This document shows, piece by piece, positions 4,287 through 59,483 of a DNA stretch of 64,000 nucleotides. This DNA comes from a virus. The notes beneath the pieces were generated by a model. The model did no database searches, was not told the DNA's origin, and saw only the letters and a list, made by a program, of their open reading frames with translations. Position numbers and translations under genes: made by a program. Within the stretch, counting starts at the first letter, position 1; every line of letters starts with the position of its first letter. The stretch lies in the IMG/VR virus record IMGVR_UViG_3300031884_000002, positions 62,001-126,000 of that record. The stretch is one strand, 5' to 3'.

Positions 4287-6665
4287 TTAAGCCGTAACTA
4301 ATTCTTCCGGTTGAATATCAACTAAATCAACTACATCGGTTTTAACTGTTTCCGTATATTCATTATATAAATCAATCGACTTGATATATTTTACAAAATT
4401 ATTACGACTAATTTCATTATTGAGTGAACCATTTCTCATATTATGCCAATTAATATAAGGATAGATTTTAATGATTTCATTTTTAATATCTTCAATATTA
4501 ACCGTTGGTTTAATTCCTTTAACAAAATTACACCAAATATAAAGTTGTTGAATAGCATCAATAAATCCAGTTGTATCTTTATTTTTATTAAGAGAAAAAG
4601 AAGTATTAAACAATTTAATCAATACATGATTATCACCTAATTCTTTAGTTAGAAGTTCAGCCTCTTCAATGTTAATAACCGAAGTATCGGCATATTGATT
4701 AACCAAATCTTGAGGATTAATATTGGATGATATACTTTCTACAATAAACTTATCCAGCGGCAACCAAGTTTTATTTTCAATAGCATTCTCAAACCATTTG
4801 GCACCAGCGGTAATACTATCAATAATATAAACCCTCTCAATATCCAAGTTCAATTTATCATTGATAGTTTTAATATATCCCATCACATCACTAACATAGA
4901 TTTCATTATCATTAAACTTGATTTTATTTCCACGAAAATAATTCTTACGTCCACGTTTACTTGGTGCTTTATATAGAAAATAAACGTCTTCATCAATATC
5001 TTTAAATGCAACATCGGACTCTTCAACCTCTTCCGATACAAAATCCATATATTCCATCTTACGAATAACCGAAGTCCAACTACCACCCGAACGAGTTCCT
5101 TTATTAGCAGAATACCAAACCTTGGCATCGGCCAACAAATCGGATAGATTTAGAGTCGGCACAGTATCAAAATTATATTCTTTATAGAATGCAGATTTAA
5201 TATTATTGGTTTCAAAGTTCAATACATGAATAATCTTATATTGATAATTTTTAGAAAATAACAAATACCGCATAACCATAGCCATTCCGCTTCTCTTATT
5301 GGTATCGTTAATAACAACTCCAACCTTATCGGATGCTGTAATTCCATTATAAACATTAGATTTGCATTTAAAAGTTTTAATCCGGTTCTTCTTGGGACGA
5401 TAAGTAGTCATTACTGGAGCATATGGATTATAATCTTTTCCATCAAGGTTGTCCGAAGATAATGCATTATCAAATCGATTAATATGTCTAAAAGAAGCAT
5501 CTGTAATTGGAATACCATTCCAAATAAGTTGTCCCTTCAACGTATCTTCCAATTTAGATAAATTACCAGCCAAGATTTTAATATTATCAATGGCAATACT
5601 GCCATCTTCCGTTTCAATCGGCAAACCACTTCCGAAAATAGAATTATATATTTTCTTTGCTTCCCAGATATTAAAAGCATTGGAAAACTTTTCCTGCACT
5701 GATTCCTTGATTTTGACAATAATATCTTCAATTTTAGAAATTAAAGCCTCCAATGTCAATTTGGAATATTCTAATGCCTCTCTCGAAGGAACAAATTCCA
5801 AATCACCCATTTTATATTTTAAAACTAAATCATTAGAATGAAGCAAATCCAATAAAGCACGGCTCTTACTATCAATCGGCAATTGGTTGGAAATTTTATT
5901 AAAATCCAAGGGGTAAGAAACGTTTCCCATGTAAGCCACCGCAACCGCAGCATATCCAGATTTGGGACGAATTTCCCAACCATCACCTTTCAAGGTGGCT
6001 GGAGTAGTCCTGAATTTATCAATTTGTAATTGATATTCATCATTCAGATTAACGAGTTGAGGAAGCATTTCCCAATATTTAAAATAATTAGCGGCTTCCT
6101 GATGAATATCATACATCATTTCACTTTTAATAGGAATACAAACTTCAATGCCGGTAGGTTCATCAGAAACAATACGAGCCATTTCATAAATTTGAGGAAG
6201 TTTAGTTTTATCTCCCTTAATAATTTGATAAATTGCCTTTTCTCCTTTATTCCAAGAAGTAACTGTCATAGAATCACTTACACATTGAAAAGATTTTGAT
6301 CCAAATCCCCACGAACCATTAAAATCATTGGAATTTCTACGTGTAGATGTTCCCATATTACAATAAATTTTAACAATTTCCTCGGCATTCAATCCAGCAC
6401 CAAAATCTCGGAATTTAAGTGTCAAATCATTATATACAGGCAATGTAACTATAAAATCAGAAATTGGCTTCTTGGCTTCAATATGAGCGTCAAAAGCATT
6501 GTTAGCATATTCCCTCACAACTGCCAATTCTTTCTTGGAATACATTTTATCAGATAGACAATCCATAATTCTGGCTCTCTCAGCAGCATCAAAATCAACT
6601 TGTCCAATAAGTTTTACACCGGAACCATTCGTTTCAATCGTCTGTTGTGTTTCGTTGGATATCAT
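4287..6665 (-). CDS. rIIA: rIIA-like GHKL ATPase
   Basis: A 792-aa protein, close to T4 rIIA (725 aa). The N-terminal GHKL ATP-binding fold is clear: N-box VREYANNAFDAH (residues 50-61), G1 box FRDFGAGL (85-92) and G2 box SWGFGSKSF (118-126). In T4, rIIA with rIIB protects infection from lambda RexAB exclusion and acts at the membrane; the biochemical role is unsettled. The C-terminal two thirds show no motif I recognise. A promoter lies directly upstream, next to the end of the CRISPR array. Confidence 0.9.
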   Translation of the reverse strand: MISNETQQTIETNGSGVKLIGQVDFDAAERARIMDCLSDKMYSKKELAVVREYANNAFDAHIEAKKPISDFIVTLPVYNDLTLKFRDFGAGLNAEEIVKIYCNMGTSTRRNSNDFNGSWGFGSKSFQCVSDSMTVTSWNKGEKAIYQIIKGDKTKLPQIYEMARIVSDEPTGIEVCIPIKSEMMYDIHQEAANYFKYWEMLPQLVNLNDEYQLQIDKFRTTPATLKGDGWEIRPKSGYAAVAVAYMGNVSYPLDFNKISNQLPIDSKSRALLDLLHSNDLVLKYKMGDLEFVPSREALEYSKLTLEALISKIEDIIVKIKESVQEKFSNAFNIWEAKKIYNSIFGSGLPIETEDGSIAIDNIKILAGNLSKLEDTLKGQLIWNGIPITDASFRHINRFDNALSSDNLDGKDYNPYAPVMTTYRPKKNRIKTFKCKSNVYNGITASDKVGVVINDTNKRSGMAMVMRYLLFSKNYQYKIIHVLNFETNNIKSAFYKEYNFDTVPTLNLSDLLADAKVWYSANKGTRSGGSWTSVIRKMEYMDFVSEEVEESDVAFKDIDEDVYFLYKAPSKRGRKNYFRGNKIKFNDNEIYVSDVMGYIKTINDKLNLDIERVYIIDSITAGAKWFENAIENKTWLPLDKFIVESISSNINPQDLVNQYADTSVINIEEAELLTKELGDNHVLIKLFNTSFSLNKNKDTTGFIDAIQQLYIWCNFVKGIKPTVNIEDIKNEIIKIYPYINWHNMRNGSLNNEISRNNFVKYIKSIDLYNEYTETVKTDVVDLVDIQPEELVTA

Positions 6666-6727: not shown

Positions 6728-7270
6728 TTCGATTTTTGTAATGTTACGTTTATTTATTTTGACTACCTTAATTAAGAATATTAACGAAGACATCGCCAAT
6801 CCCCCGAAATACTCAAAATATCCTTTATTTATTTTGACAGCGGCAATCGCAGAGCAACTGAATACCGATGGAGTCCCCGAAATACTAAAAATATCCTTTA
6901 TTTATTTTGACTCAATTGAAGAACTTGGTAATCCATAAAGATTTACACCCCGAAATACTCAAAATATCATTTATTTATTTTGACATTCGATATTTAAGGT
7001 CCTCAATATCAAGGTCATACCCGAAATACTCAAAATATCCTTTATTTATTTTGACATGATATGGGAGATTAAAAGTAATCTGGCTCCAGTTCCCGAAATA
7101 CTCAAAATATCCTTTATTTATTTTGACTTTATATTCCAGCCTAATGATTTTAATCGATCAATCCCGAAATACTCAAAATATCCTTTATTTATTTTGACCA
7201 ATTGCTCCATTCATATATTAATAAGGGAGTAGTACCCGAAATACTCAAAATATCCTTTATTTATTTTGAC
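6728..7270 (-). CRISPR. CRISPR array 1: seven 36-bp repeats plus a degenerate terminal repeat
   Basis: Seven repeats of 36 bp start at 6803, 6876, 6949, 7020, 7092, 7163 and 7235. Six unrelated spacers of 35-37 bp separate them. An eighth, degenerate copy (6728-6763) keeps only the last 15-16 bases and is followed by a 39-bp spacer. On the minus strand the repeat starts GTCAAAATAAATAAAGG and ends GAGTATTTCGGG; an internal 8-bp palindrome (TCAAAATA/TATTTTGA) can form a hairpin. Repeats at 6876 and 6949 carry single changes while those from 7020 onward are identical, so the low-coordinate end is the old, leader-distal end. That points to minus-strand transcription, the same strand as the neighbouring Cas12-like gene. 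Spacers mostly have an open reading frame, as expected for protospacers from genes. Confidence 0.92.
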
Positions 7271-7459
7271 AGCCTTCCCGTAAAGGGTTTATTGTCAACT
7301 ATTTAAAAGGCTTTCCACGAGCGGCTATATCAGAAAAGATATAACCTAACTCATGCTAGGCATGTCGGATGCCTAAATATTTGTCAAAGAACAACTTACA
7401 TCTTGCGAGCGGTTATGCGTAACTATCTCATCACCACACCGCTCGCAAGAAAAATTAAA
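7271..7459 (-). ncRNA. Structured RNA between the Cas12-like gene and array 1 (tracrRNA/leader candidate)
   Basis: This intergenic stretch abuts the first repeat and is far more structured than its surroundings. Visible stems: 7402-7412 with 7439-7449 (11 bp, CTTGCGAGCGG), 7357-7363 with 7369-7375 (7 bp), 7323-7331 with 7338-7346 (8 of 9 bp), 7271-7276 with 7307-7312 (6 bp) enclosing a CCC/GGG hairpin. GAGCGG at 7407-7412 has a second near-complementary partner (minus-strand CCGCTC near 7319-7324), so two alternative folds are possible. Position and structure fit a tracrRNA, scoutRNA or omega-RNA-like scaffold, but no long anti-repeat is visible in it. A leader that only drives array transcription is the alternative. 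Confidence 0.7.
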
Positions 7460-7608
7460 TTACCATCCTCTACGTTTATTTTGACTACAAAGTTTTTTAT
7501 AATTCAACTCTTCTTCATTGGTTAATCTCCAATATGTAGCCCCCTCTATTCGTTTTTCTCGATGTTTTTTTTCAACAAAGGAATGAGCGTCTCTAAGAAT
7601 ATTATTTT
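7460..7608 (-). other. Out-of-frame C-terminal extension of the Cas12-like gene (candidate RuvC-III)
   Basis: Directly after the stop at 7609-7611 the -1 frame stays open for about 50 codons and ends at 7460. It lacks an ATG and encodes a basic, helix-rich segment including NNILRDAHSFVEKKHREKR. DAHSF could be the D-A-x-A-type RuvC-III motif that the annotated protein lacks. Either a frameshift split the gene or ribosomes shift near the A-rich stretch at the stop. Its last codons contain GTCAAAATAAA, identical to the start of the array repeat. Confidence 0.5.
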
Positions 7609-8973
7609 TTATTTCTGTTTTATTTCTTCTGTGTCGCATAATGTAAACACCATACCTCGTGATTCAATGTTATTTTTTAAAGTAGATTTAAACTTGAACC
7701 AAGGGAATTCACCGGCTAATTTAAATCCTTTTGTTGTGTTTAGTACAATTTCATTACAACAAGTTCTTTCGGCGTGTTTACATAACATAGCTACAGTTTG
7801 TTTAATAAAAGCATCGGTTCTTTTTTCAAAATTGTTAGCGACAACTGCTGATTTGCTATTAAAACACGAAACATTCCCAGAACGACGTTCACATTTTCTA
7901 TCCTGTGAAAACCTATCAATATATTCTCTTCTTTTTTCTGACAAATGAACTCCATAATCCTCAGATAAAATTGATTGGAGTTCTTTTAATTTATTTTCTG
8001 GAATATGAGGATATAATTCTTTAACTGTATTAGCATCTAATACTTTGGATAATAATATCTTTTCCTCGGCTACCCATCTGTTAATATTATCTGCGTTATA
8101 CACTTGGAACTTTCTACCACCAACCCACATAGCAAGAAAAGTATCAGGGGCAGTAAATAACATCATTGTTCTATTATTTTTTTTGTCTAAAAGAGAACGT
8201 GGTTGTTTTACTACAATTTTAACTTTATAAGCAGCTTTTTGTTTGTTCCCATTATCATCTCGTTGAGTGATAGTATGATGATGAACTCCTCCTACTCGTT
8301 CACGAACAATCGCACAACTTCCCCATTTAGCATTTCCTTCCATTATTGCTTTCAAGTTTCCATGCTCTCTGCCAAAATTATCACCTCCCGCCAATCTTAA
8401 TTGAATTCTATTATTTATTCTTCCGCATCCAATTACAAATTCTATTACATAAGCAATAGACCCACAAGTATTTAACACTTTTATATCACAAGCCACAGAA
8501 GGTATTTCTAATGGTTGTCCTTCTTTATAGAAGGGTTGATTTTCCCGCCCAAGAAACACAAGCAACTTCTTTTTATTAAATAATTTAGTAATTTTATTCT
8601 GAAGAGTCGATGCGATTACTGATGATGGAATTAAAGGAAATAATTTCCGTGCTTCATTATAAATTTTCTTTTGTAGGGCATTATATTTTTCCTTAGATGG
8701 AGAAACATATTTTTCATCCAATCCACTTTTAACTGGTTCGCTCTTAAACAAGGATGATAACGCCCAATTATGAAACAAATCGTTTTGCTTAAATAATTCA
8801 TCTAATCGAGAATCAACTTCTTTCCATTCCATATTAAGAGGTTCTGCAATAGGTAGGGTAATGGAAAATACATTACTTACAGTATCCGCTGTAAACGCAT
8901 ATGGCTTGGGTTCCTGCCATAGCCAACCATCTCGAAGTTCGAGCAACCCTTTTTTATTTACTTCAAATTTCAT
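7609..8973 (-). CDS. Compact Cas12/TnpB-like effector with degenerate RuvC
   Basis: A 454-aa protein. Residues 60-140 resemble the helical region of compact type V effectors (FHNWALSSLF, ARKLFPLIPSSVIASTLQNK, VFLGRENQPFY). Residues 160-260 resemble the oligonucleotide-binding (WED) part (IQLRLAGGDN, AIMEGNAKWGSCAIVRE). RuvC-I may be at TAPDTFLAMWV (Asp277), without the usual glycine. RuvC-II reads EIVLNTTKGF: the catalytic Glu of the IVxED motif is Asn412. It is followed by FPWFKFKSTLKNNIESRG, the conserved helix of TnpB/Cas12, and stops before the zinc ribbon and RuvC-III. It is therefore probably nuclease-dead and could act as an RNA-guided DNA-binding repressor. Its ATG overlaps the phosphoesterase stop (ATGA). 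Array 1 follows downstream. Confidence 0.75.
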   Translation of the reverse strand: MKFEVNKKGLLELRDGWLWQEPKPYAFTADTVSNVFSITLPIAEPLNMEWKEVDSRLDELFKQNDLFHNWALSSLFKSEPVKSGLDEKYVSPSKEKYNALQKKIYNEARKLFPLIPSSVIASTLQNKITKLFNKKKLLVFLGRENQPFYKEGQPLEIPSVACDIKVLNTCGSIAYVIEFVIGCGRINNRIQLRLAGGDNFGREHGNLKAIMEGNAKWGSCAIVRERVGGVHHHTITQRDDNGNKQKAAYKVKIVVKQPRSLLDKKNNRTMMLFTAPDTFLAMWVGGRKFQVYNADNINRWVAEEKILLSKVLDANTVKELYPHIPENKLKELQSILSEDYGVHLSEKRREYIDRFSQDRKCERRSGNVSCFNSKSAVVANNFEKRTDAFIKQTVAMLCKHAERTCCNEIVLNTTKGFKLAGEFPWFKFKSTLKNNIESRGMVFTLCDTEEIKQK

Positions 8974-9860
8974 AACATTAAGGATTTAAGACCTTTATCG
9001 ATTTTATCCAATGGAATATAATCAACCGGACTACTATTAAAATTTACAATTGTTCCATTCGTAATATGATAAACATCAACTTGACTTAAATTTTTATAAG
9101 TTGAAATATATGCAAATCCGTGTTGCCATGCATTGGCACGCCCACCTTTAGTAGCAAATTCCGGAGAAAGATTACATAAACATCCAATCGACCACGACCA
9201 CATAATATCTTTATCTCCCGCTTCATTGATACGATTTCGTTTACTAAAATCTTTATAAGTAATAGCATGACTATCCGCATGAACAACTCTATGATTTTGC
9301 ATCATATATTGAGTTTCACTAAGTCCATTGCCATGCATAACATAGACATCTCCAACTTCATATATTGGACGAATAGAGCCTCCATTCCAAGGAATATAAG
9401 TTATATTAAGTTCTTTCCATATGGAACATTTACGAATACTTATACCATCTCCAAAACTTCGAAGCAAATCATTTTTTCTTAATTCAAATTCGGAACGATA
9501 TTCGTGATTACCTTCGATAAAAATAATTTCAGCATTGGGCACAAACTTACGAATAACACGGAGAAATTCTTTTCCCATATTAAGAGTTTCTTTCCACGCA
9601 GAAAAATGATATTCTCCATCGTCAGTCATAATCAATCCTCCCTTATTTATTTTAGCAGTCCATCCAGAGCACTGTTGATTATCAAACATATCTCCCATAA
9701 TAATAACTCTATCAGCACCATATTTTTTAATAATCTGCATCAATGGAGACAATGCAACTGGATCATGACGGCAATCTGGCAATTTAACCTTTCCATCTAC
9801 TAACAATGCTGCTTGAAGATGTAAATCTGGAATTGTAATTGTTGTCTCTAATTTATTCAT
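8970..9860 (-). CDS. Calcineurin-like metallophosphoesterase
   Basis: A 296-aa protein with the family's metal-binding motifs: IPDLHLQ (DxH), IIMGDMFDN (GDxxD), IEGNHEYR (GNHE) and VMHGNG. Such enzymes hydrolyse phosphodiesters or phosphomonoesters; substrate unknown. It is first in an operon from the promoter at 9870-9898, and its stop overlaps the Cas12-like start by 4 nt, so the two are co-transcribed and probably translationally coupled. Related phosphoesterases are common in large phages, so a role in the CRISPR system is only a possibility. Confidence 0.85.
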   Translation of the reverse strand: MNKLETTITIPDLHLQAALLVDGKVKLPDCRHDPVALSPLMQIIKKYGADRVIIMGDMFDNQQCSGWTAKINKGGLIMTDDGEYHFSAWKETLNMGKEFLRVIRKFVPNAEIIFIEGNHEYRSEFELRKNDLLRSFGDGISIRKCSIWKELNITYIPWNGGSIRPIYEVGDVYVMHGNGLSETQYMMQNHRVVHADSHAITYKDFSKRNRINEAGDKDIMWSWSIGCLCNLSPEFATKGGRANAWQHGFAYISTYKNLSQVDVYHITNGTIVNFNSSPVDYIPLDKIDKGLKSLML

Positions 9861-9869
9861 TATTGAAGG

Positions 9870-9898
9870 AGTATATCAGGTTAATAAAAAAATGTCAA
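9870..9898 (-). promoter_or_regulatory. Promoter for the phosphoesterase/Cas12-like/array unit
   Basis: Minus-strand TTGACA (9893-9898) and TATACT (9870-9875) with a 17-bp spacer, 10 bp before the ATG at 9860. No other clear promoter is seen before the array. Confidence 0.65.
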
Positions 9899-11627: not shown

Positions 11628-12812
11628 ATGAATGATGCATCAAAATTAAACCAAAGTCAAGAGAAAGAAGTTATATGGGAAGAAAGAAATTATACAGAAC
11701 CAGAGAAGAATTACTTGAACAGCAACGTGCCAGAGCAAAACGATATTACAACAAAAACAAACAAAGAATATCCGCTGTCAGAATGGCCAATTACTATAAA
11801 GCCAATAAAAAGCGGAATATACAAAATAATAAATAAAATTAATAATAAATATTATGTAGGAAGTGCTAAAAATATAAGAAACAGATGGAAAAAGCACTTT
11901 ACTGATCTAAATACAAATCGACATCCCAACTATCATTTGCAGAGCGCATATAATAAATATGGAAAAGATAGTTTTATTTTTACATTTATAGAAGAAGTCG
12001 AATCTAATAAAAAACTGTTATATAAAGTAGAATATAAATATTTAAGAATTGCTAAAAAAGAAAAACCAAATGTATATAATTTAAGGTTTAAACCGGCTGG
12101 AGGACCAACCGATACATATGGGCGATGGAAAATATCAGAATATAACAAAACAAGAGTATTTACGAAAGAAACAAGAGCAAAAATGTCGGCGGCATTAAAA
12201 AGAAGAAAAGTAACAAACGAAACACGACAAAAACTAAGTGATACTAATAAATTATATTATTCTATACCTGAAAACAGACAAAAACTCATAGAAATGAGTA
12301 AAAAAGTAAATCGGCAGAAAATAGGAATTAAAAATAGAGACAAAACTATATATAAATTTATAAATGTAAATACAGGAGAAATATTCGAAGGAATTAGATA
12401 TGATTTTAGAACAAAATATAACTTAAGGAAAAGCAGTGTTAATGGAGTTATTAAAAAACGAAGAAAGACAGTTAGTGGCTGGAGATTATTTGATAATTCA
12501 TATGTTCCAATTGTCGGAAAAAATAACAAATATAAAAATAAAGAAGAATCAAATTTTTCCAAACGCAAAATTAAAAATAGACCTTCAAAAGAGGAACTTC
12601 TCACAATGATATGGAATAAATCCACAATTCAAATAAGTAATGAGTTTTGCGTGAGCAAAGGAGCAATTAGAAAATGGTGTATAGGATACAATATACCACT
12701 TCCTCCTGTTGGTTATTGGATTAAATTAAAATATGGATATAAAGATGAATGTCTTAAAATAAAAGAAGAACAATTTAAAAAATTTAATCTTGTTTGTAAT
12801 TTTGATTTATAA
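11628..12812 (+). CDS. GIY-YIG homing endonuclease
   Basis: A GIY-YIG catalytic domain starts at SGIYKIINK (residue about 62) with NKYYVGSAKNIRNRW and the HLQSAYNKYGKDSF region. NUMOD3-like DNA-binding repeats follow (TRAKMSAALKRR, TRQKLSDTNK, NRQKLIEMSK) and a C-terminal HTH (IQISNEFCVSKGAIRKW). The first 60 residues are probably not native: that stretch is conserved in the MGRKK frame instead. Its 3' end overlaps the end of the convergent RNA ligase gene by 29 bp. Confidence 0.85.
   Translation: MNDASKLNQSQEKEVIWEERNYTEPEKNYLNSNVPEQNDITTKTNKEYPLSEWPITIKPIKSGIYKIINKINNKYYVGSAKNIRNRWKKHFTDLNTNRHPNYHLQSAYNKYGKDSFIFTFIEEVESNKKLLYKVEYKYLRIAKKEKPNVYNLRFKPAGGPTDTYGRWKISEYNKTRVFTKETRAKMSAALKRRKVTNETRQKLSDTNKLYYSIPENRQKLIEMSKKVNRQKIGIKNRDKTIYKFINVNTGEIFEGIRYDFRTKYNLRKSSVNGVIKKRRKTVSGWRLFDNSYVPIVGKNNKYKNKEESNFSKRKIKNRPSKEELLTMIWNKSTIQISNEFCVSKGAIRKWCIGYNIPLPPVGYWIKLKYGYKDECLKIKEEQFKKFNLVCNFDL
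11675..11836 (+). CDS. Basic MGRKK peptide overlapping the GIY-YIG gene in another frame
   Basis: A 53-codon frame starting MGRKKLYRTREELLEQQRAR, with YYNKNK-like basic helices. Compared with the copy at 58580, most differences are silent third-position changes in this frame and replacements in the GIY-YIG frame, so this frame is the one under selection. It ends where GIYKII begins, in the frame one base earlier. A purine-rich stretch (GAGAAAGAAG) precedes its ATG. It may be the true N-terminal DNA-binding part of the endonuclease, joined by a +1 shift. Confidence 0.6.
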   Translation: MGRKKLYRTREELLEQQRARAKRYYNKNKQRISAVRMANYYKANKKRNIQNNK

Positions 12813-14107: not shown

Positions 14108-14353
14108 TTATTCATACGGTCTATTATCTTTTAAATCTTCAGTTAAATAATCATATACTCTGTCTTTAAATACGGTGTCGCTCAATCCCCACTGTTCCGC
14201 TATGAACTTTATATCGATTGGAAGTGTATTATATATTTTATCCAATTGATTGTCAGTAGGTTCAGTATCATTGTTATGAGCGGTCAACGCATCAATAATA
14301 ACATCGTTGAATGCGTCTTGGTCTGATTCTGAATATTCTTTATATTTTTTCAT
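14108..14353 (-). CDS. Hypothetical acidic protein, 81 aa
   Basis: An 81-aa acidic, mostly helical protein (FNDVIIDALTAHNNDTEPTDNQ). Its ATG overlaps the CoaD-CoaE stop by ATGA, so it is co-translated with that enzyme. Function unknown. Confidence 0.6.
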   Translation of the reverse strand: MKKYKEYSESDQDAFNDVIIDALTAHNNDTEPTDNQLDKIYNTLPIDIKFIAEQWGLSDTVFKDRVYDYLTEDLKDNRPYE

Positions 14354-15537
14354 GATAATCCAATAGATTTAAAAAAGTTTTCCCTATGTAAAATGGAAAA
14401 TAATTCTAATTGTTTAGCATCTTTATTTTGTAAATCATAAATCGGTTGACCTTTTTCATTTTTAATTAAAACAATCTTACCATGTCCAGTATCTTCAATA
14501 GATTTCATTAAACTTCTAACTTTTTGATTATTATTGAATTGAGATTTTAGGCGTCTATTAACATCGGACCAGTTATTCTGATATCTTTCTAATAAACGCC
14601 GAATTAATTCATCGGTAGATGTATCTACAACAATCACATTATTATTACATAGATAATGCATATTACAATCTATAAGCAATGCTCCATTTAGAATAATAAG
14701 TCCTGTTTTACCAGCAATTTGCTTTCTAATTTCTCTAATCATTATAGGCTTATATAAATCTTGTATTTTTTTATTAAAAAAACAATCATTAAATATTGCT
14801 TCCTGTAAATCTAATTTTATAATTTTAAAATATTCAGTCTTATTTTTATCGGATAACATTTCCATCACGGTTTTACGCATATCCATTACTTCAATATTTT
14901 CCTTAAATGTATCGCCATATGTTAAATTATATGCAATTTTATCCATATCTATATGAGTAACTGGTAAATTAGAATACCCATCAATCAATAACTGAGTTAT
15001 ATAAGATTTACCACAACCAATGGTGCCGGTAACTCCGATAATATATTGTTGATTTATTTTAATTTCCAATAATTGCTTGGCCGATAAAGAAACATAATCC
15101 CTAACATCGCCATTGTATTTAATCAATTCTTTGGCGGCTGATGAACTAATTTTAGCATCAATCGGATTAGAAAATAAAACACAAGTATCAACTCCGTTTT
15201 CCTGTGCCACCGTTACTTCGTGTAACATTCGTTCATATTCCGTATCTTTAATATCCCGAATACCTTTAATAATAGTAACAATACCTTTGGAACGAGCATA
15301 ATCGCTAACTAATTGATTATCAGGGAGAACATCAACTTCAAACTCGGTTGATAATAAAGAAGGCAGAGCACTATAAATAAGTCCAATCCGTTCTTCAATA
15401 TTAAATGTATATTTTTTAGCAGGATTATTCGCCACTAAAACAACCACCTTGTCAAACATTTTTAGTGCTCGCTTAACAATGTTGGCGTGTCCCTCGTGAA
15501 AACAATCAAAACTTCCAGCGTAAATACAAGATTTCAT
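14350..15537 (-). CDS. coaDE: Bifunctional CoaD-CoaE: phosphopantetheine adenylyltransferase fused to dephospho-CoA kinase
   Basis: A 395-aa protein. Residues 1-155 are a CoaD-type nucleotidyltransferase: YAGSFDCFHEGHANI (HxGH class), VIIKGIRD-like IIKGIRDIKDTEYE and KISSSAAKEL. Residues about 163-395 are a CoaE-type P-loop kinase: GVTGTIGCGKSYIT and HIDMDKIAY. Together they would catalyse the last two steps of coenzyme A synthesis. The two enzymes are normally separate in bacteria; the fusion parallels eukaryotic COASY in order. It is notable beside an ACP-bearing rIIB. Confidence 0.85.
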   Translation of the reverse strand: MKSCIYAGSFDCFHEGHANIVKRALKMFDKVVVLVANNPAKKYTFNIEERIGLIYSALPSLLSTEFEVDVLPDNQLVSDYARSKGIVTIIKGIRDIKDTEYERMLHEVTVAQENGVDTCVLFSNPIDAKISSSAAKELIKYNGDVRDYVSLSAKQLLEIKINQQYIIGVTGTIGCGKSYITQLLIDGYSNLPVTHIDMDKIAYNLTYGDTFKENIEVMDMRKTVMEMLSDKNKTEYFKIIKLDLQEAIFNDCFFNKKIQDLYKPIMIREIRKQIAGKTGLIILNGALLIDCNMHYLCNNNVIVVDTSTDELIRRLLERYQNNWSDVNRRLKSQFNNNQKVRSLMKSIEDTGHGKIVLIKNEKGQPIYDLQNKDAKQLELFSILHRENFFKSIGLS

Positions 15538-16173: not shown

Positions 16174-16613
16174 AAATATTTTAAAGCAAAGTAATTTATA
16201 GTTAAATGTAATAAGTTGTCGGTGATAATATAGAGCCAAATGGTTATACAGAATAATCTACGTTGTTGTAATACATTATCAAAATAAACTTCACCTTTCT
16301 TAGAATTGATTGGACTGTCATCAAAATACCCAGTCGTATCACAATTTCCGAATGAAGGATATTGAAACTTGGGATTGATATGATTTTTTAACCAGATAAG
16401 TCTTCTAACTATAATGGGAAATCTATCAATAATAAAATGGGTGCCGCCAATAACCAACAATGCTTTCCAAGAAAAAGTTAAAAACAAGAATAAAGAAGTA
16501 TAAATCAAAACATGAACCAAGCATGGCATAGTCTTTTTAGACTTATTCATTGCCATCCAATCCGATTGTCCGATTATATAATCTCCAAAGCCGTGTATAA
16601 TTAGTTGTAACAT
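16170..16613 (-). CDS. DUF3307-like membrane protein
   Basis: A 147-aa integral membrane protein with HGFGDYIIGQSDWMAMNKSKK near the start, the signature of DUF3307 proteins (H-x-x-x-D ... Q-x-D-W-M-A), and three or four hydrophobic segments (about residues 34-55, 58-75, 118-140). Function of the family is unknown. Confidence 0.65.
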   Translation of the reverse strand: MLQLIIHGFGDYIIGQSDWMAMNKSKKTMPCLVHVLIYTSLFLFLTFSWKALLVIGGTHFIIDRFPIIVRRLIWLKNHINPKFQYPSFGNCDTTGYFDDSPINSKKGEVYFDNVLQQRRLFCITIWLYIITDNLLHLTINYFALKYL

Positions 16614-37784: not shown

Positions 37785-38073
37785 TTTTTATTTTCGATAG
37801 ATTTTCTTGTTTAATATCTTCTAATTTTCTAAATTGACGAGAATCAAATGCGGTTTCTGTTCCGGTTGGGATATAGATTACAGGACATCCTATAAGTTGT
37901 AATCCCGCATATCCAGTATCAGTGTTATACACCACATTTTTAATTACATACACTGCATTTTCAATAGGAAATCCATCAGGATATGAAAATATAGTTGTAT
38001 CTATATATCCATAATTAGGCAAGTTTTGCCCTGTATTTGCTATACATACTACTTTATCAGATATATTAAACAT
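37774..38073 (-). CDS. Hypothetical protein, 99 aa
   Basis: A 99-aa protein (MFNISDKVVCIANTGQNLP ... YAGLQLIGCPVIYIPTG). The opening again looks like a small beta barrel. Overlaps the CinA-NMNAT gene end by 8 nt. Confidence 0.6.
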   Translation of the reverse strand: MFNISDKVVCIANTGQNLPNYGYIDTTIFSYPDGFPIENAVYVIKNVVYNTDTGYAGLQLIGCPVIYIPTGTETAFDSRQFRKLEDIKQENLSKIKNEN

Positions 38074-39178
38074 TCTTATTCCTCAATTCAGTCGATGATA
38101 TCGGCATATTAAAATTAGCCGCTTCATCTGATTTAATCATTAAATGACTGTATCTATCATCAATTTTAATCCCATTACGACCAAATACTAAAAACTTAAC
38201 ATTTTTACGAGTAAAAAAGTATTCTAAATCATCAACTGGAATGCCATATTTATCATCAAACACTCTAATAAACGTATCGGCACCCATTACAAATGTTATT
38301 TCACATTTAGGATTGTGTTTTTTAATTATATTTATTTTATCTATAACCAAAGAAGCATTAGTAATAATATATGTATTATCAGCAATAGAGTCCAATCTAT
38401 TTTTTATGTCAATTAAATCTATCGTTCCTTTATCTGCGTTTTTAATAGATAATTCAAGTAATACTGGATAATTTAATATTTTTTCAGATAATTCCTTAAT
38501 TTTACGATGCCCTTCGTGATAAGGATTAAAACTTCCTCCAAAAACAGCAATTCTTTCAATGTTGGATATTGATATATTGGAATAATAACCAATCTCTCCT
38601 TTAACTAATGAATATAATTTACCAGCATGTGCTATCTTTAATTCTCCAGTCATGCCCTTATCATCCACATAATTATATTCCCAAATATAATCATCTCCAC
38701 TCATAGAGTCAACAACTTTATTTAACAAATACAATATTCTATCGGATATGTATAAATCTTCTTCTACTCTTGTCATTACACCATACGGAATTGTAATTTT
38801 AAGACATACCGTAAAATAACTGATATGTATGGCAATATTAACTTTATGTAGTCGTCCAACTCGTTCTCCGTCAAAAGCAATAGAACTGGCGGCACCAATA
38901 CCAATAGATTTATCGATATCAATACCGGCAATACGACACTGCTGATATGATGCCAATGCTAATTTACGAGCGGCTAATGGACTGGAATATTCATCTATTT
39001 TAGTTCCTATAAAATTATCAAATATAGTTCTATCATACGGAACAATACATCCAACTATAGTTTTGGATGCTCCGCTAATTTTACAGTAATCCGCAATAAA
39101 TGATTGTCCTCCACCTGATATAGCAACAAATGCCTTGTAAGGAGAGTCGTTAATTTTATTTACAATTCCTTTATCCAT
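38066..39178 (-). CDS. CinA-like domain fused to NMN adenylyltransferase
   Basis: A 370-aa protein. Residues 10-185 resemble the CinA C-terminal (PncC) domain: VAISGGGQSFIADYCKISGA, IVGCIVPYDRTIFDNF, GIGAASSIAFDG. Residues about 208-370 are a NadD/NMNAT-type nucleotidyltransferase: IAVFGGSFNPYHEGHRKI (GSFNPxHxGH), TFVMGADTFIRVFD and ISSTELRNK (SST-x-x-R). The second half would make NAD+ from NMN; the first half could deamidate NMN. NAD+ is used by LigA and the PARP-like protein in this window. Confidence 0.8.
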   Translation of the reverse strand: MDKGIVNKINDSPYKAFVAISGGGQSFIADYCKISGASKTIVGCIVPYDRTIFDNFIGTKIDEYSSPLAARKLALASYQQCRIAGIDIDKSIGIGAASSIAFDGERVGRLHKVNIAIHISYFTVCLKITIPYGVMTRVEEDLYISDRILYLLNKVVDSMSGDDYIWEYNYVDDKGMTGELKIAHAGKLYSLVKGEIGYYSNISISNIERIAVFGGSFNPYHEGHRKIKELSEKILNYPVLLELSIKNADKGTIDLIDIKNRLDSIADNTYIITNASLVIDKINIIKKHNPKCEITFVMGADTFIRVFDDKYGIPVDDLEYFFTRKNVKFLVFGRNGIKIDDRYSHLMIKSDEAANFNMPISSTELRNKNV

Positions 39179-39428: not shown

Positions 39429-40097
39429 TCAATTTAAACTGGTAACTGTATATTCCGGTCTAATACCTTTATTCATATCAACAGACCCATCGGAATTGAG
39501 CCTAACATATCCAATATCATTTTTCATTTTAATGAATTGTTTAATAGCAATCTTCTCTCCCAATGTAGAAGCAGCCGATTGAACCAATTGTCCAATAGTA
39601 ATCTTATCATCCTTGACAAACTTTTGATTCATCAGACAATAATCAGATATATATTTTCCAATTTTACCCTCTATAATTTTATCAATAATATTTCCCGGTT
39701 TATTTTTATTAGTGGAAAATACATCCTGTTTAATATGGTTAATTTCTTCCGGTTTAATTTCATCTTTACTTATAGAAGTAGGAGTAATTGGAGTGGAACA
39801 TATATGCATACAAATGTCCTTGGCTAAATTGACAAATGTTTCATTTTTTGCCACGAAATCAGTTTGACAAGCCAATACAATCATTGCGCCAACTTTGTGA
39901 TTATGAATGTAAGAATATACAATGCCAGCATTGGCTACTCGGTTTGCCATATCAGTAGTATCGGTTTGCTTTTCTTTAATTAGAAAATCTATTGCTTTTT
40001 CTACATCTCCACCGGAGGTTTCCAATGCAACATTGATTTTATTATAAGGAGACATTGTAATGTCTCGGATATGTTTAATTTTTTCTGGTTGTGTCAT
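39429..40097 (-). CDS. tsf: Elongation factor Ts
   Basis: A 222-aa protein. N-terminal UBA-like domain KIHVALETSGGDVEKAIDFL-type (observed: INVALETSGGDVEKAIDFLI), then core signatures NAGIVYSYIHNHKVGAMIVL, QTDFVAKNETFVNLAKDIC and the second core region with QKFVKDDKITIGQLVQ. Compared with about 280 aa in E. coli EF-Ts it is compact. EF-Ts recycles EF-Tu-GDP. EF-Tu is not in this window, so it probably acts on the host factor. Overlaps the upstream gene by ATGA. Confidence 0.9.
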   Translation of the reverse strand: MTQPEKIKHIRDITMSPYNKINVALETSGGDVEKAIDFLIKEKQTDTTDMANRVANAGIVYSYIHNHKVGAMIVLACQTDFVAKNETFVNLAKDICMHICSTPITPTSISKDEIKPEEINHIKQDVFSTNKNKPGNIIDKIIEGKIGKYISDYCLMNQKFVKDDKITIGQLVQSAASTLGEKIAIKQFIKMKNDIGYVRLNSDGSVDMNKGIRPEYTVTSLN

Positions 40098-48514: not shown

Positions 48515-48889
48515 ATGAGTGATTTCAAAGTAATAGAAAAAGCGTTTCCGAGCAGAGAACCTGAAAGTGGTATTCCACCAGAAACAAGATGGATTATTGT
48601 TGATGCCAACGACAAACTTTTGGATGATGCTGGTGGTTATGGATACAAAACCAAACAGAATGCTTTGAAAGCGGGTTGGTATAAGTTTCAAGGTGGTAAA
48701 AACAAGATTGACGAAATCAAATCGTGGTGGAAACAGAATAAAGCATTCTCACGAAGATTGAATAGATTTCAGGAAGATAACTTCAAAGAGATTGCTTACA
48801 ACCAAATCAACTTTGAAGAAGAGACAGTCAAAATTGCCAAAGAAATGAACATTGACGGGTTTGAAGTAAAGTTTTTGAAGTATTTATGA
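48515..48889 (+). CDS. Hypothetical cargo protein, 124 aa
   Basis: Start at ATG 48515 (MSDFKVIEKAFPSREPESG). Contains WIIVDANDKLLDDAGGYGYK and a helical C-terminus. Its stop overlaps tnpA by ATGA, so it is co-translated with the transposase. Function unknown. Confidence 0.6.
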   Translation: MSDFKVIEKAFPSREPESGIPPETRWIIVDANDKLLDDAGGYGYKTKQNALKAGWYKFQGGKNKIDEIKSWWKQNKAFSRRLNRFQEDNFKEIAYNQINFEEETVKIAKEMNIDGFEVKFLKYL

Positions 48890-49269
48890 GCCATAGCAAG
48901 TATCTGCTCCAATTCCATTTAGTTTTTTCAACTAAATATCGTAAAAAGATATTGTCGGGAGCATTGAGTGATGACTTGAAGCAGATTATGTATGATATTG
49001 CTAATGAGAAGGATATTATCATCAAAGCAATGGAGACGGACGATGACCACATACACCTAATGGTTGACTATCCTCCTACAAAGTCGGTATTAGAAATGAT
49101 GAATAACTTCAAGTCCATTTCAACATTTAGAATATACAAAAAACATAGAGCATTTCTCAAAGGGCATTATTGGAAGGAAAATACTCTATTCTCTGATGGA
49201 TACTTCGTTTGTTCCATTGGGGAAGCATCTCCAGAAACAATCAAAAAATACATACAAACTCAGGGATAA
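48886..49269 (+). CDS. tnpA: IS200/IS605 Y1 transposase TnpA
   Basis: A 127-aa protein: LLQFHLVFSTKYRKKILSG, the HUH motif in DDDHIHLMVDY, and the catalytic tyrosine in SPETIKKYIQTQG. Y1 transposases move single-stranded DNA at short end hairpins, which are visible on both sides. Length is slightly short of the usual 130-150 aa. Confidence 0.88.
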   Translation: MSHSKYLLQFHLVFSTKYRKKILSGALSDDLKQIMYDIANEKDIIIKAMETDDDHIHLMVDYPPTKSVLEMMNNFKSISTFRIYKKHRAFLKGHYWKENTLFSDGYFVCSIGEASPETIKKYIQTQG

Positions 49270-50429: not shown

Positions 50430-50681
50430 ATGTGATTAAATCCACATTTGCTTCTTTAATGACACACCAGTGATGGAGTAATATATACGATGAAGGGTGA
50501 AGTGTTAGATGATAAACAAATTATTATTTAATGACACAAATATGGTTTATATGTAAGTCCATAATTATCAAATGTGTTAGATGATAAACAAATTATTATT
50601 TAATGACACAACGTAAACGGAACCGTCAGGCGACAGCAACACCGAGTGTTAGATGATAAACAAATTATTATTTAATGACAC
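50430..50681 (-). CRISPR. CRISPR array 2: three 36-bp repeats plus a degenerate repeat
   Basis: Identical 36-bp repeats begin at 50502, 50574 and 50646. A degenerate copy (50430-50465) keeps TTTAATGACAC at its end. All three spacers (50466-50501, 50538-50573, 50610-50645) are exactly 36 bp and unrelated. On the plus strand the repeat starts GTGTTAGATGATAAAC and ends TATTTAATGACAC. As in array 1 the worn copy is at the low-coordinate end. No cas gene is adjacent and the repeat is unrelated in sequence to array 1. Confidence 0.85.
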
Positions 50682-50703
50682 AAAGAGAAGTGTGATTTTG
50701 ATA

Positions 50704-51429: not shown

Positions 51430-52704
51430 ATGAGTAACTTAATTAAAGAAGCGAGATTGATCTTTTTGGAGCAAAACGACGAAACTAATTCGTATAAATG
51501 GTGGAATGCTCAACTATATGATGATGGAAAAGTAAAAATTCAATATGCGAGGGTCGGTGCGGAGCACCCTCAAAGCGGAGAATGGGATGGTGGCGAGAAA
51601 TATTTTAACAAGAAAGTGTCTGAAAAATTAAAAAAAGGCTATGTAGAACAAAAAACCATTGGGTCGGCAACTGCTTCATCCACTCCATCAGTTACGGTGA
51701 AAAACTCCGATTTATTAGAAATTGCCAAGAAACAAATTATTAAAACTTCCAATCCAATTCTTGAGCGTTTAATTAAACGCTTGGTAGATTCTAATATTCA
51801 TAAGATTACCAGTAGCACTCAAATTACATATAATTCAACTACTGGATTATTTAGTACACCACTCGGATTAATCGATAAATATGGAATAGATGAGGCCCGT
51901 TTAATATTAGCCGACATATCAACTTTAGTAAATCAAAACAGGTTTAATAATGAATTTAATAAACTAGTATTTAAATATCTTACTATAATACCTCAAAGTT
52001 TAGGTATGAAAAAAATCCAGCCAATAACTATAATTCCTAATAATGAGGCTTTACAAGAACAATTAGACATCTTAGATTCTTTAAGTGCGTCATATCAAGC
52101 ACTTCAACCAACTTCTCAATCTTTACCGCAAAATCAGACAACAGAGGAAGTATTTAAAGTTAATTTAGATATATTAAATGATAATAATGAAAGATCTAGG
52201 CTTAATAATTTTTTTGAAAAATCAAAGAAGTCAATGCATGGATATGATAATATTAGAGTAAAGGAAATGTATAAAGTTGATATTAACACAATGACTTCAA
52301 ACTTTTTACACACTGATCCAAACATAGTGGAAACCTTCCACGGAAGTTCAATGGCAAACGTTCTTTCAATATTGAAAAGTGGATTAAAAATTAATCCTCC
52401 ATCTACAGCAGCCATAGCCGGAAAATTATTCGATAATGGAATTTATGGGTCGGTTAATAGTACAAAAAGTTTAGGATATTGTTTAAACAAATGGTCTCAA
52501 GGTGGAGTAGGTGATGCAGCATTTTTATTTATATGCTCATTCGCAATGGGTAAAACATATACCACTACGGCATATGGATGTAAACGTCCGACTAATTATG
52601 ATAGTATTTGGGCCAAGGCTTCTTCAAATAGATTGAAAAACGATGAATTAATTGTTTATTCTGAAAATAGAGTAAAAATCAATTATTTATTAGAGTGTAA
52701 ATAA
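51430..52704 (+). CDS. PARP1-like poly(ADP-ribose) polymerase with WGR domain
   Basis: A 424-aa protein in the PARP1 domain order. Residues 10-73 are a WGR-type domain (WWNAQLYDDGKVKIQYARVG; the W-G of WGR is Y-A). Residues about 88-230 match the helical regulatory domain (TGLFSTPLGLIDKYGIDEAR). Residues about 275-424 are the catalytic domain: FHGSSMANVLSILKSGLKI with the NAD-binding His, AGKLFDNGIYGSVNSTKSLGYC with the Tyr, and NDELIVYSENRVKINYLLE with the catalytic Glu, so the H-Y-E triad is present. It would transfer ADP-ribose from NAD+, possibly on sensing DNA breaks. PARPs are rare in bacteria and phages. Confidence 0.85.
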   Translation: MSNLIKEARLIFLEQNDETNSYKWWNAQLYDDGKVKIQYARVGAEHPQSGEWDGGEKYFNKKVSEKLKKGYVEQKTIGSATASSTPSVTVKNSDLLEIAKKQIIKTSNPILERLIKRLVDSNIHKITSSTQITYNSTTGLFSTPLGLIDKYGIDEARLILADISTLVNQNRFNNEFNKLVFKYLTIIPQSLGMKKIQPITIIPNNEALQEQLDILDSLSASYQALQPTSQSLPQNQTTEEVFKVNLDILNDNNERSRLNNFFEKSKKSMHGYDNIRVKEMYKVDINTMTSNFLHTDPNIVETFHGSSMANVLSILKSGLKINPPSTAAIAGKLFDNGIYGSVNSTKSLGYCLNKWSQGGVGDAAFLFICSFAMGKTYTTTAYGCKRPTNYDSIWAKASSNRLKNDELIVYSENRVKINYLLECK

Positions 52705-58532: not shown

Positions 58533-59483
58533 ATGAATGATACATCAAAATTAAACCAAAGTCAAGAGAAAGAAAAAATATGGGAAGAAAAAAGTTATAT
58601 AGAACCAGAGAAGAATTACTCGAACAGCAACGTGCCAGAGGAAATAGATACTATAATAAACACAAAAGAAAAATCAATATTAAAAATATGCGACGATACT
58701 ATAACAAAAAAAAGTGGAATATACAAAATAATAAATAAAACAAATAACAAATACTATATAGGAAGTGCTAAAAATATTAGAATTAGAATTAAATATGGTC
58801 ATTTATGGGCACTAAAATCTAAAAAACACAGAAACAGACATCTTCAAAGAGCATGGAACAAATTTGGAGAAGATAATTTTTATATAATGATTATAGAATA
58901 TGTTCCTATAGAATTATTAAAAATTGTAGAACAAAGATATTTAGATATAGCAAAATCAGAAATAGATAATGTATATAACATACAGTTTATAGCCGATAGA
59001 TTAGAAGTAACTGATTATATGCGAGAATGTGTTAGAGCATCAAATAAAAACAGAGTATGGACAAAGGAATCTCGTAAAAAATTAAGCAAAGTTCATACTG
59101 GGTATAGACATACAGATGAAGCCAAACAAAAAATGAGCGATGCCAATAGAGGTAAAATTATTTCTTTGGAACATAGATTAGCAGTTGGAATTGCGACAAG
59201 AGAACGGATCAAAAAATATGGATCTCCAATGAAAGGAACTCACATGTCCAAGGAAACAAAACAAAAACTTAGTAAATCAAGAACTGGAAAATATAGAGGG
59301 AAGGAAAATCACGCATTTGATAATACTATTTATAATTTTATCCATAACAAAACTGGCGAAATATTTGTAGGAACTAGACACGAATTAAAATTAAAAGCAA
59401 ATCTTTGTATTGATAGTTTATATAAACTAATAAATAATAAAATATTTACTTCCAAAGGTTGGGCATTAATATATCCTATTTAA
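58533..59483 (+). CDS. GIY-YIG homing endonuclease
   Basis: A 316-aa reading frame with the GIY-YIG domain from SGIYKIINKTNNKYYIGSAK (residue about 60) to about 140, and NUMOD3-like repeats (SRKKLSKVHTGYRHTDEAKQ; KMSDANRGK; TKQKLSKSRTGKYRG). Closest relative in the window is the gene at 11628, including an N-terminal stretch that is better conserved in the MGRKK frame. Overlaps the 3' end of the convergent dCMP deaminase gene by 8 nt. Confidence 0.85.
   Translation: MNDTSKLNQSQEKEKIWEEKSYIEPEKNYSNSNVPEEIDTIINTKEKSILKICDDTITKKSGIYKIINKTNNKYYIGSAKNIRIRIKYGHLWALKSKKHRNRHLQRAWNKFGEDNFYIMIIEYVPIELLKIVEQRYLDIAKSEIDNVYNIQFIADRLEVTDYMRECVRASNKNRVWTKESRKKLSKVHTGYRHTDEAKQKMSDANRGKIISLEHRLAVGIATRERIKKYGSPMKGTHMSKETKQKLSKSRTGKYRGKENHAFDNTIYNFIHNKTGEIFVGTRHELKLKANLCIDSLYKLINNKIFTSKGWALIYPI
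58580..58738 (+). CDS. Basic MGRKK peptide overlapping the second GIY-YIG gene
   Basis: A 52-aa frame (MGRKKLYRTREELLEQQRAR ... RYYNKHKRK ... RRYYNKKKW). The first 20 residues are identical to the copy at 11675 although the DNA differs at silent positions. It ends where GIYKII begins in the +1 frame, after a run of eight A at 58706-58713. Confidence 0.6.
   Translation: MGRKKLYRTREELLEQQRARGNRYYNKHKRKINIKNMRRYYNKKKWNIQNNK

Follow-up and report, generated by a model that had tools for sequence, protein, structure and literature searches.

The giant phage represented by virus record IMGVR_UViG_3300031884_000002 (353,772 bases) carries a compact CRISPR module of approximately 3.2 kb, whose effector resembles Cas12f and lacks the catalytic residues of the RuvC nuclease. 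The window analyzed here is the stretch of 64,000 bases from 62001 to 126000 of this record, and all coordinates below refer to the window unless stated otherwise. Along the minus strand at 6728-9898, a promoter is followed by a metallophosphoesterase (MPE) gene, the Cas12f-like gene, a small open reading frame (ORF), a structured RNA resembling trans-activating CRISPR RNA (tracrRNA), and the CRISPR array, as given below (lengths in base pairs, bp).

9870..9898 (-): sigma-70-like promoter TTGACA-17-TATACT, 11/12 consensus match with an extended -10, top-scoring in the region
8970..9860 (-): metallophosphoesterase (calcineurin-like), 296 amino acids; Pfam Metallophos 7.8e-6, PHROG 221 6e-17
7609..8973 (-): Cas12f-like effector, 454 amino acids, RuvC catalytic residues lost
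7460..7639 (-): small basic ORF, 59 amino acids, overlapping the 3′ end of the effector gene in another frame
~7271..7450 (-): structured, tracrRNA-like leader RNA in the interval between effector and array, six helices and one pseudoknot
7293..7298 (-): anti-repeat TTGACA, pairing with 7266-7271 (the last leader base and bases 1-5 of repeat 1)
6803..7270 (-): CRISPR array, seven 36-bp repeats GTCAAAATAAATAAAGGATATTTTGAGTATTTCGGG with six spacers in between
6764-6802 (-): seventh spacer
6728..6763 (-): degenerate terminal repeat at the distal end of the array, first 15 bases kept

An earlier note on this DNA, made from the sequence alone, had listed the promoter, the MPE, the 454-residue gene, the RNA and the array, and every one of these parts was located in its place, the conserved small ORF at 7460-7639 having been overlooked. 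The start codon of the MPE lies approximately 10 bases downstream of the promoter, and its stop codon overlaps the effector start as ATGA; this layout suggests that one transcript from 9870-9898 covers all parts of the module. The lack of cas1 and cas2 that the note had reported extends to the whole 354-kb record, across which both Cas1 and Cas2 are absent (controls positive).

A second locus was found by a scan with effector residues 163-305 (143 amino acids), on the 15-kb virus contig IMGVR_UViG_3300032397_000159 (hereafter L040). Its effector of 491 codons is 50% identical over the scanned residues and 47% overall, and the locus matches that of the window in its parts and their order, including the ATGA overlap, with a promoter (TTGACA-17-TATGGT) at the same place ahead of the MPE and with the same spacing. 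The two MPEs are 33% identical, and the L040 array comprises 11 copies of a 36-bp repeat, whose end, TTCGGG, is common to both loci. The neighbors of the L040 module, encoding a glycosyltransferase, a GDSL lipase-like protein and an HNH protein, bear no relation to those of the window module, and the GC content differs as well. Because the gene context differs, the linkage of the parts is more than inherited synteny, and the same module occurring in an unrelated phage therefore looks like a real, selected tool.

By its sequence, the effector is a member of the Cas12f family (V-F/V-U3). In PADLOC, residues 38-225 match Cas12u3 (3.6e-9) and Cas12f (1.6e-8), and the L040 effector alone matches Cas12f at 5.7e-12; this similarity is confined to the N-terminal half in both effectors, and neither of them matches the Cas12u1/Cas12m profile. 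Nothing significant was obtained for the effector in Pfam, PHROG or NCBIfam. A profile of the two effectors, when compared with the whole PDB, retrieved Cas12f chains only (9nzq at 1.2e-4; AsCas12f1 at 0.13), and hhalign of the effector against Cas12f gave a probability of 92.6, whereas 100 column shuffles gave no more than 3.3. Moreover, a small AsCas12f-type family profile aligns with effector residues 31-454, in which the effector ends just where a zinc ribbon would be expected to begin. Through these PADLOC, PDB profile and hhalign matches, the type V-like effector of the earlier note is supported and narrowed to Cas12f/V-U3.

The comparison of the two sequences strongly supports that the RuvC of this effector is nuclease-dead. 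The position of the RuvC-I Asp is occupied by Phe273 in the window effector and by Ser in that of L040, and the position of the RuvC-II Glu by Asn412 in the former and likewise by Asn in the latter. None of the RuvC-I, II and III motifs (GIDxG, xxxED, DxNAAxN) is found in either effector, nor is a CxxC pair or zinc ribbon, the alignment stopping ahead of the ribbon. Asn412 and the missing RuvC-III had been recognized from the start and recur in L040, the loss of the RuvC-I Asp (F273) had gone unreported, and the three TnpBs in the window were correctly described as intact, all having complete RuvC motifs. Because the two diverged effectors share the same losses, inactivation appears to be older than their split. 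Identity between them is even along the protein, at 36-54% per 50 residues with the former RuvC part included, and amounts to 55, 68, and 31% at first, second, and third codon positions, respectively, the last being near saturation; even identity combined with near-saturated third positions argues that the effector has been under selection since the split. As for the TnpB-like genes in general, the phage record contains six besides the dead Cas12f, at record positions 16243, 333113, 117853, 91064, 108768, and 7461, and one IS200-type TnpA lies at 48886-49269.

The small ORF, which has no family match, is conserved in L040 (VEKKxREKR...WRL) with a local score of 63, which none of 2000 shuffles reached (maximum, 51). 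A programmed frameshift into a RuvC-III tail was considered and rejected, because the frame of the small ORF relative to the effector differs between the loci (+2 and +1), and because the small ORF starts at an ATG of its own and lacks a conserved Asp.

In the array itself, five of the seven repeats are perfect and two carry a single mismatch. Its spacers are all unique and measure 35, 35, 36, 36, 37, 37, and 39 bp, so that the 36-bp repeats previously described stand and the spacer range, given as 35-37 bp, becomes 35-39 bp. No further copy of the repeat occurs in the 354-kb record, and the repeat core had no match in the viral contig set. Separately, another small CRISPR-like array, with no recognized cas gene, lies at 50430-50683 (+), in which three perfect 38-bp repeats GTGTTAGATGATAAACAAATTATTATTTAATGACACAA are preceded by one degenerate copy, with a spacing of 72 bases and 34-bp spacers; its repeat differs from that of the dead-Cas12f module.

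The structured RNA has a fold z of -6.7, its fold is conserved in L040, and it has no match in Rfam. Six helices are common to the leaders of both loci, in which 39 of 39 pairs hold in both sequences and 13 show changes on both sides, the structure having been derived from these two sequences. A search of all helices in the pairwise alignment yielded three with at least three compensatory changes, a number that none of 1000 column shuffles reached, and the two leaders agree completely over 16 bases (AAGTTGTTCTTTGACA). The helix between anti-repeat and repeat is TTGACA/TGTCAA in the window and GTCAGG/CCTGAC in L040, four of the six pairs being changed on both sides, and it forms a pseudoknot with the adjacent helix. 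In the window alone a long classical anti-repeat scored no better than chance, and this short covarying helix became detectable only once L040 was compared. Because the conserved leader contains 13 compensatory pairs including the leader:repeat helix, it looks like a tracrRNA-like scaffold with a short anti-repeat.

These RNA features bear on two further explanations of the locus. In one, the module would be a decoy against host CRISPR, with the dead effector and leader capturing host CRISPR RNAs (crRNAs) or competing with host Cas12f. There is a precedent in a phage RuvC-dead Cas9 of type II-C2 with a tracrRNA, for which such a role was proposed (PMC10910872); however, that Cas9 has no array, whereas the module here has an intact array of diverse spacers and a leader that pairs and covaries with its own repeats, so we regard a decoy as improbable. 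In the other, the locus would be what is left of a once active phage Cas12f system, decayed and without function, a reading compatible with the lost catalytic residues and C-terminus, the point mutations in the two window repeats, and three short spacers in the L040 array. Nevertheless, the frames of MPE, effector and small ORF are open in both loci, the proteins retain 47% identity while third positions are near saturation, and the RNA is conserved with compensatory changes, which together make simple decay very hard to credit.

The MPE retains its metal-site residues in both loci (D12, H14, D57, N118, H119, H176, and H198), with the first His of the GHxH motif replaced by Asp. Its predicted model is good, with a predicted local distance difference test (pLDDT) of 83.6 and a predicted template modeling score (pTM) of 0.87, and resembles phage MPEs most closely; among solved structures it matches SbcD/Mre11 nucleases, purple acid phosphatases, Rv0805 and Vps29 about equally, and the NCBIfam endonuclease PdeM gives a weak match (3.5e-6), below the cut-off. 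Judged from this model, the MPE may act as a nuclease or as a phosphatase. The earlier statement that no nuclease partner is present cannot stand, because the MPE fold also includes SbcD/Mre11 nucleases, and a conserved, translationally coupled MPE could be the partner enzyme. A tentative alternative, which we hold to be doubtful, is therefore that the dead Cas12f recruits the MPE (and the small basic protein) to DNA or RNA that the spacers match, where the MPE would act as an SbcD/Mre11-type nuclease or as a phosphatase; the two would then form a new type of two-component RNA-guided enzyme. The ATGA overlap in both loci, a pair that stays together across unrelated contexts, the conserved metal site, a good model whose PDB matches include SbcD and Mre11, and a weak PdeM match all speak for recruitment. 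However, such MPEs are common as stand-alone phage genes, and the phosphatases, Rv0805 and Vps29 fit the fold just as well. No relative of the MPE was found in the genome contig set, and none of its viral relatives carries the module. Recruitment is less likely than a block of transcription through binding.

The reading that we favor, and consider probable, is that of a phage accessory module descended from a type V-F system, which would perform RNA-guided DNA binding without RuvC cleavage. A single transcript would yield the MPE, the Cas12f-like protein, the small basic protein, the scaffold and the guide RNAs, and the Cas12f-like protein would bind the scaffold paired with processed guides. 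The guided effector would then find matching DNA and bind it without cutting, its RuvC active site being gone, and the likeliest outcome would be a transcription block of a rival element or a host gene, probably assisted by the MPE and the small protein as conserved parts of the module. Both the RNA guidance and DNA as the target are what we infer, and Cas12m, TldR and phage dCas14 offer analogies that make gene silencing by the effector plausible.

Several points weigh against this reading. The spacer search that the earlier note had suggested, covering the phage's own genome, phages and plasmids, returned chance-level matches only, and because no target was found, silencing too is a function that we infer. 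The C-terminal half of the effector alone did not rise above shuffles when compared with the Cas12f RuvC by hhalign; the former RuvC part is therefore strongly diverged, and the placement of F273 and N412 depends on the full-length alignment and the motif pattern. The earlier note had also proposed profile searches and an AlphaFold prediction for the protein, of which the former point to Cas12f and the latter gave an unusable model (pLDDT 36.8). The RNA covariation amounts to one pairwise comparison, since a single relative was found. Lastly, silencing alone leaves the role of the MPE unexplained.

Inactive Cas12 proteins usually acquire a new partner or job, such as silencing, transposition, or transcription. 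The present module is a conserved, compact phage case of an inactive Cas12 with an unexplained enzyme partner, small enough for testing (~3.2 kb). If the MPE is recruited, it would represent a new way to act on a programmed target, and if it is not, the module would be a ready, phage-made transcriptional silencer.

The genes next to the module provide a view of its distribution, beginning with the following features.

4287-6665: RIIA, next after the array; PHROG 612, 8e-80
6717-6690: promoter-like site belonging to RIIA

A phage related to the window phage (L017), recognizable by an RIIA of 52% identity and three more neighboring genes, has a GIY-YIG gene upstream of RIIA in place of the module, and a search run without a positive control found no effector in its 139-kb record. 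Because the context in L040 is unrelated and L017 is without the module, the module seems to travel as one piece from phage to phage. In ICP1, a single locus alternates between a CRISPR system and a GIY-YIG nuclease (PMC11656645), a suggestive parallel to the site upstream of RIIA in the window and L017. The window itself has two GIY-YIG/NUMOD3 homing-endonuclease-like genes far apart from each other (11628-12812 and 58533-59483), which share a nearly identical N-terminal leader peptide (MND.SKLNQSQEKE.IWEE). Single-protein scans with the effector found no relative in viral contigs, genome contigs, phages or plasmids, an alignment scan after the discovery of L040 found no further ones, and AsCas12f1 as a seed had no match in the viral contig set.

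Four other genes in the window deserve mention. A fusion of a cytidylyltransferase-like domain and dephospho-CoA kinase (CoaE) at 14350-15537 (-) resembles a two-step coenzyme A enzyme; another cytidylyltransferase-like gene, extended at its N terminus, lies at 38066-39178 (-). An elongation factor Ts-like gene is found at 39429-40097 (-; Pfam EF_TS 4.5e-26), and a PARP-like ADP-ribosyltransferase with a regulatory domain at 51430-52704 (+; Pfam PARP 7.6e-21, PARP_reg 2.5e-9).

Type V-F Cas12f systems (V-U3, e.g., AsCas12f1) are similar to the module in the N-terminal half, compact size, and an array adjoining the effector, and the gene-tracrRNA-array order of Cas12f loci (PMC7229846) is matched by its gene-RNA-array order. 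Unlike them, the module is without the Asp-Glu-Asp triad, zinc ribbon, RuvC-III, and Cas1/Cas2, and has the MPE and the small ORF in addition. An AsCas12f-type effector annotated as a transposase was also noticed in Alicyclobacillus phage MMB025 (L035 2263-3841), adjoining an annotated CRISPR repeat region; its zinc ribbon and RuvC-III are intact, and the isolated phage is a possible culturable comparison. PDB 9n9c, a nuclease-deactivated Cas12f that we take to be part of a sigma-factor partner system, has a 365-residue chain that stops matching AsCas12f1 at approximately residue 361, where the window effector ends too, and no direct sequence similarity between the two was detected. The dCas12f-sigma system has a co-encoded sigma factor, whereas the 354-kb record, which may be incomplete, has no Sigma70_r2 gene (control genomes positive).

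Cas12m is a naturally non-cleaving, array-bearing Cas12 that silences by binding (PMC10442227). In contrast to the window effector, which has no match to its profile, it retains an HDD site and works with crRNA as its sole RNA. TldRs are a nuclease-dead TnpB lineage with their own guide RNA and no array, and the window module differs from them in its array and its Cas12f-type effector, whose nearest profiles are Cas12f/V-U3. TldR has been described as a phage-borne RNA-guided transcription factor (PMC13418256), and the 2025 classification, which does not mention a phosphoesterase, lists RuvC inactivation as a recurrent event in type V (PMC12669027). A huge-phage "dCas14" with an array and one catalytic residue missing was proposed to be a repressor (Al-Shayeb et al., 2020, PMC7162821), so that a phage-borne dead Cas12f with an array is known in outline and the idea itself is not new. 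Compared by description alone, both are phage-borne Cas14-type effectors with an array; unlike the window module, dCas14 has an identified host target, glycyl-tRNA synthetase, and the passages describing it mention no MPE. The combination that the earlier note had called unusual has this 2020 precedent for its dead effector and array, and remains so for the MPE-linked module with a small ORF and pseudoknotted leader RNA, of which no report was found in the open-access literature. As far as that literature shows, what is new here is the conserved module of MPE, small ORF, and pseudoknotted RNA, together with evidence from a second locus for ancestral inactivation.

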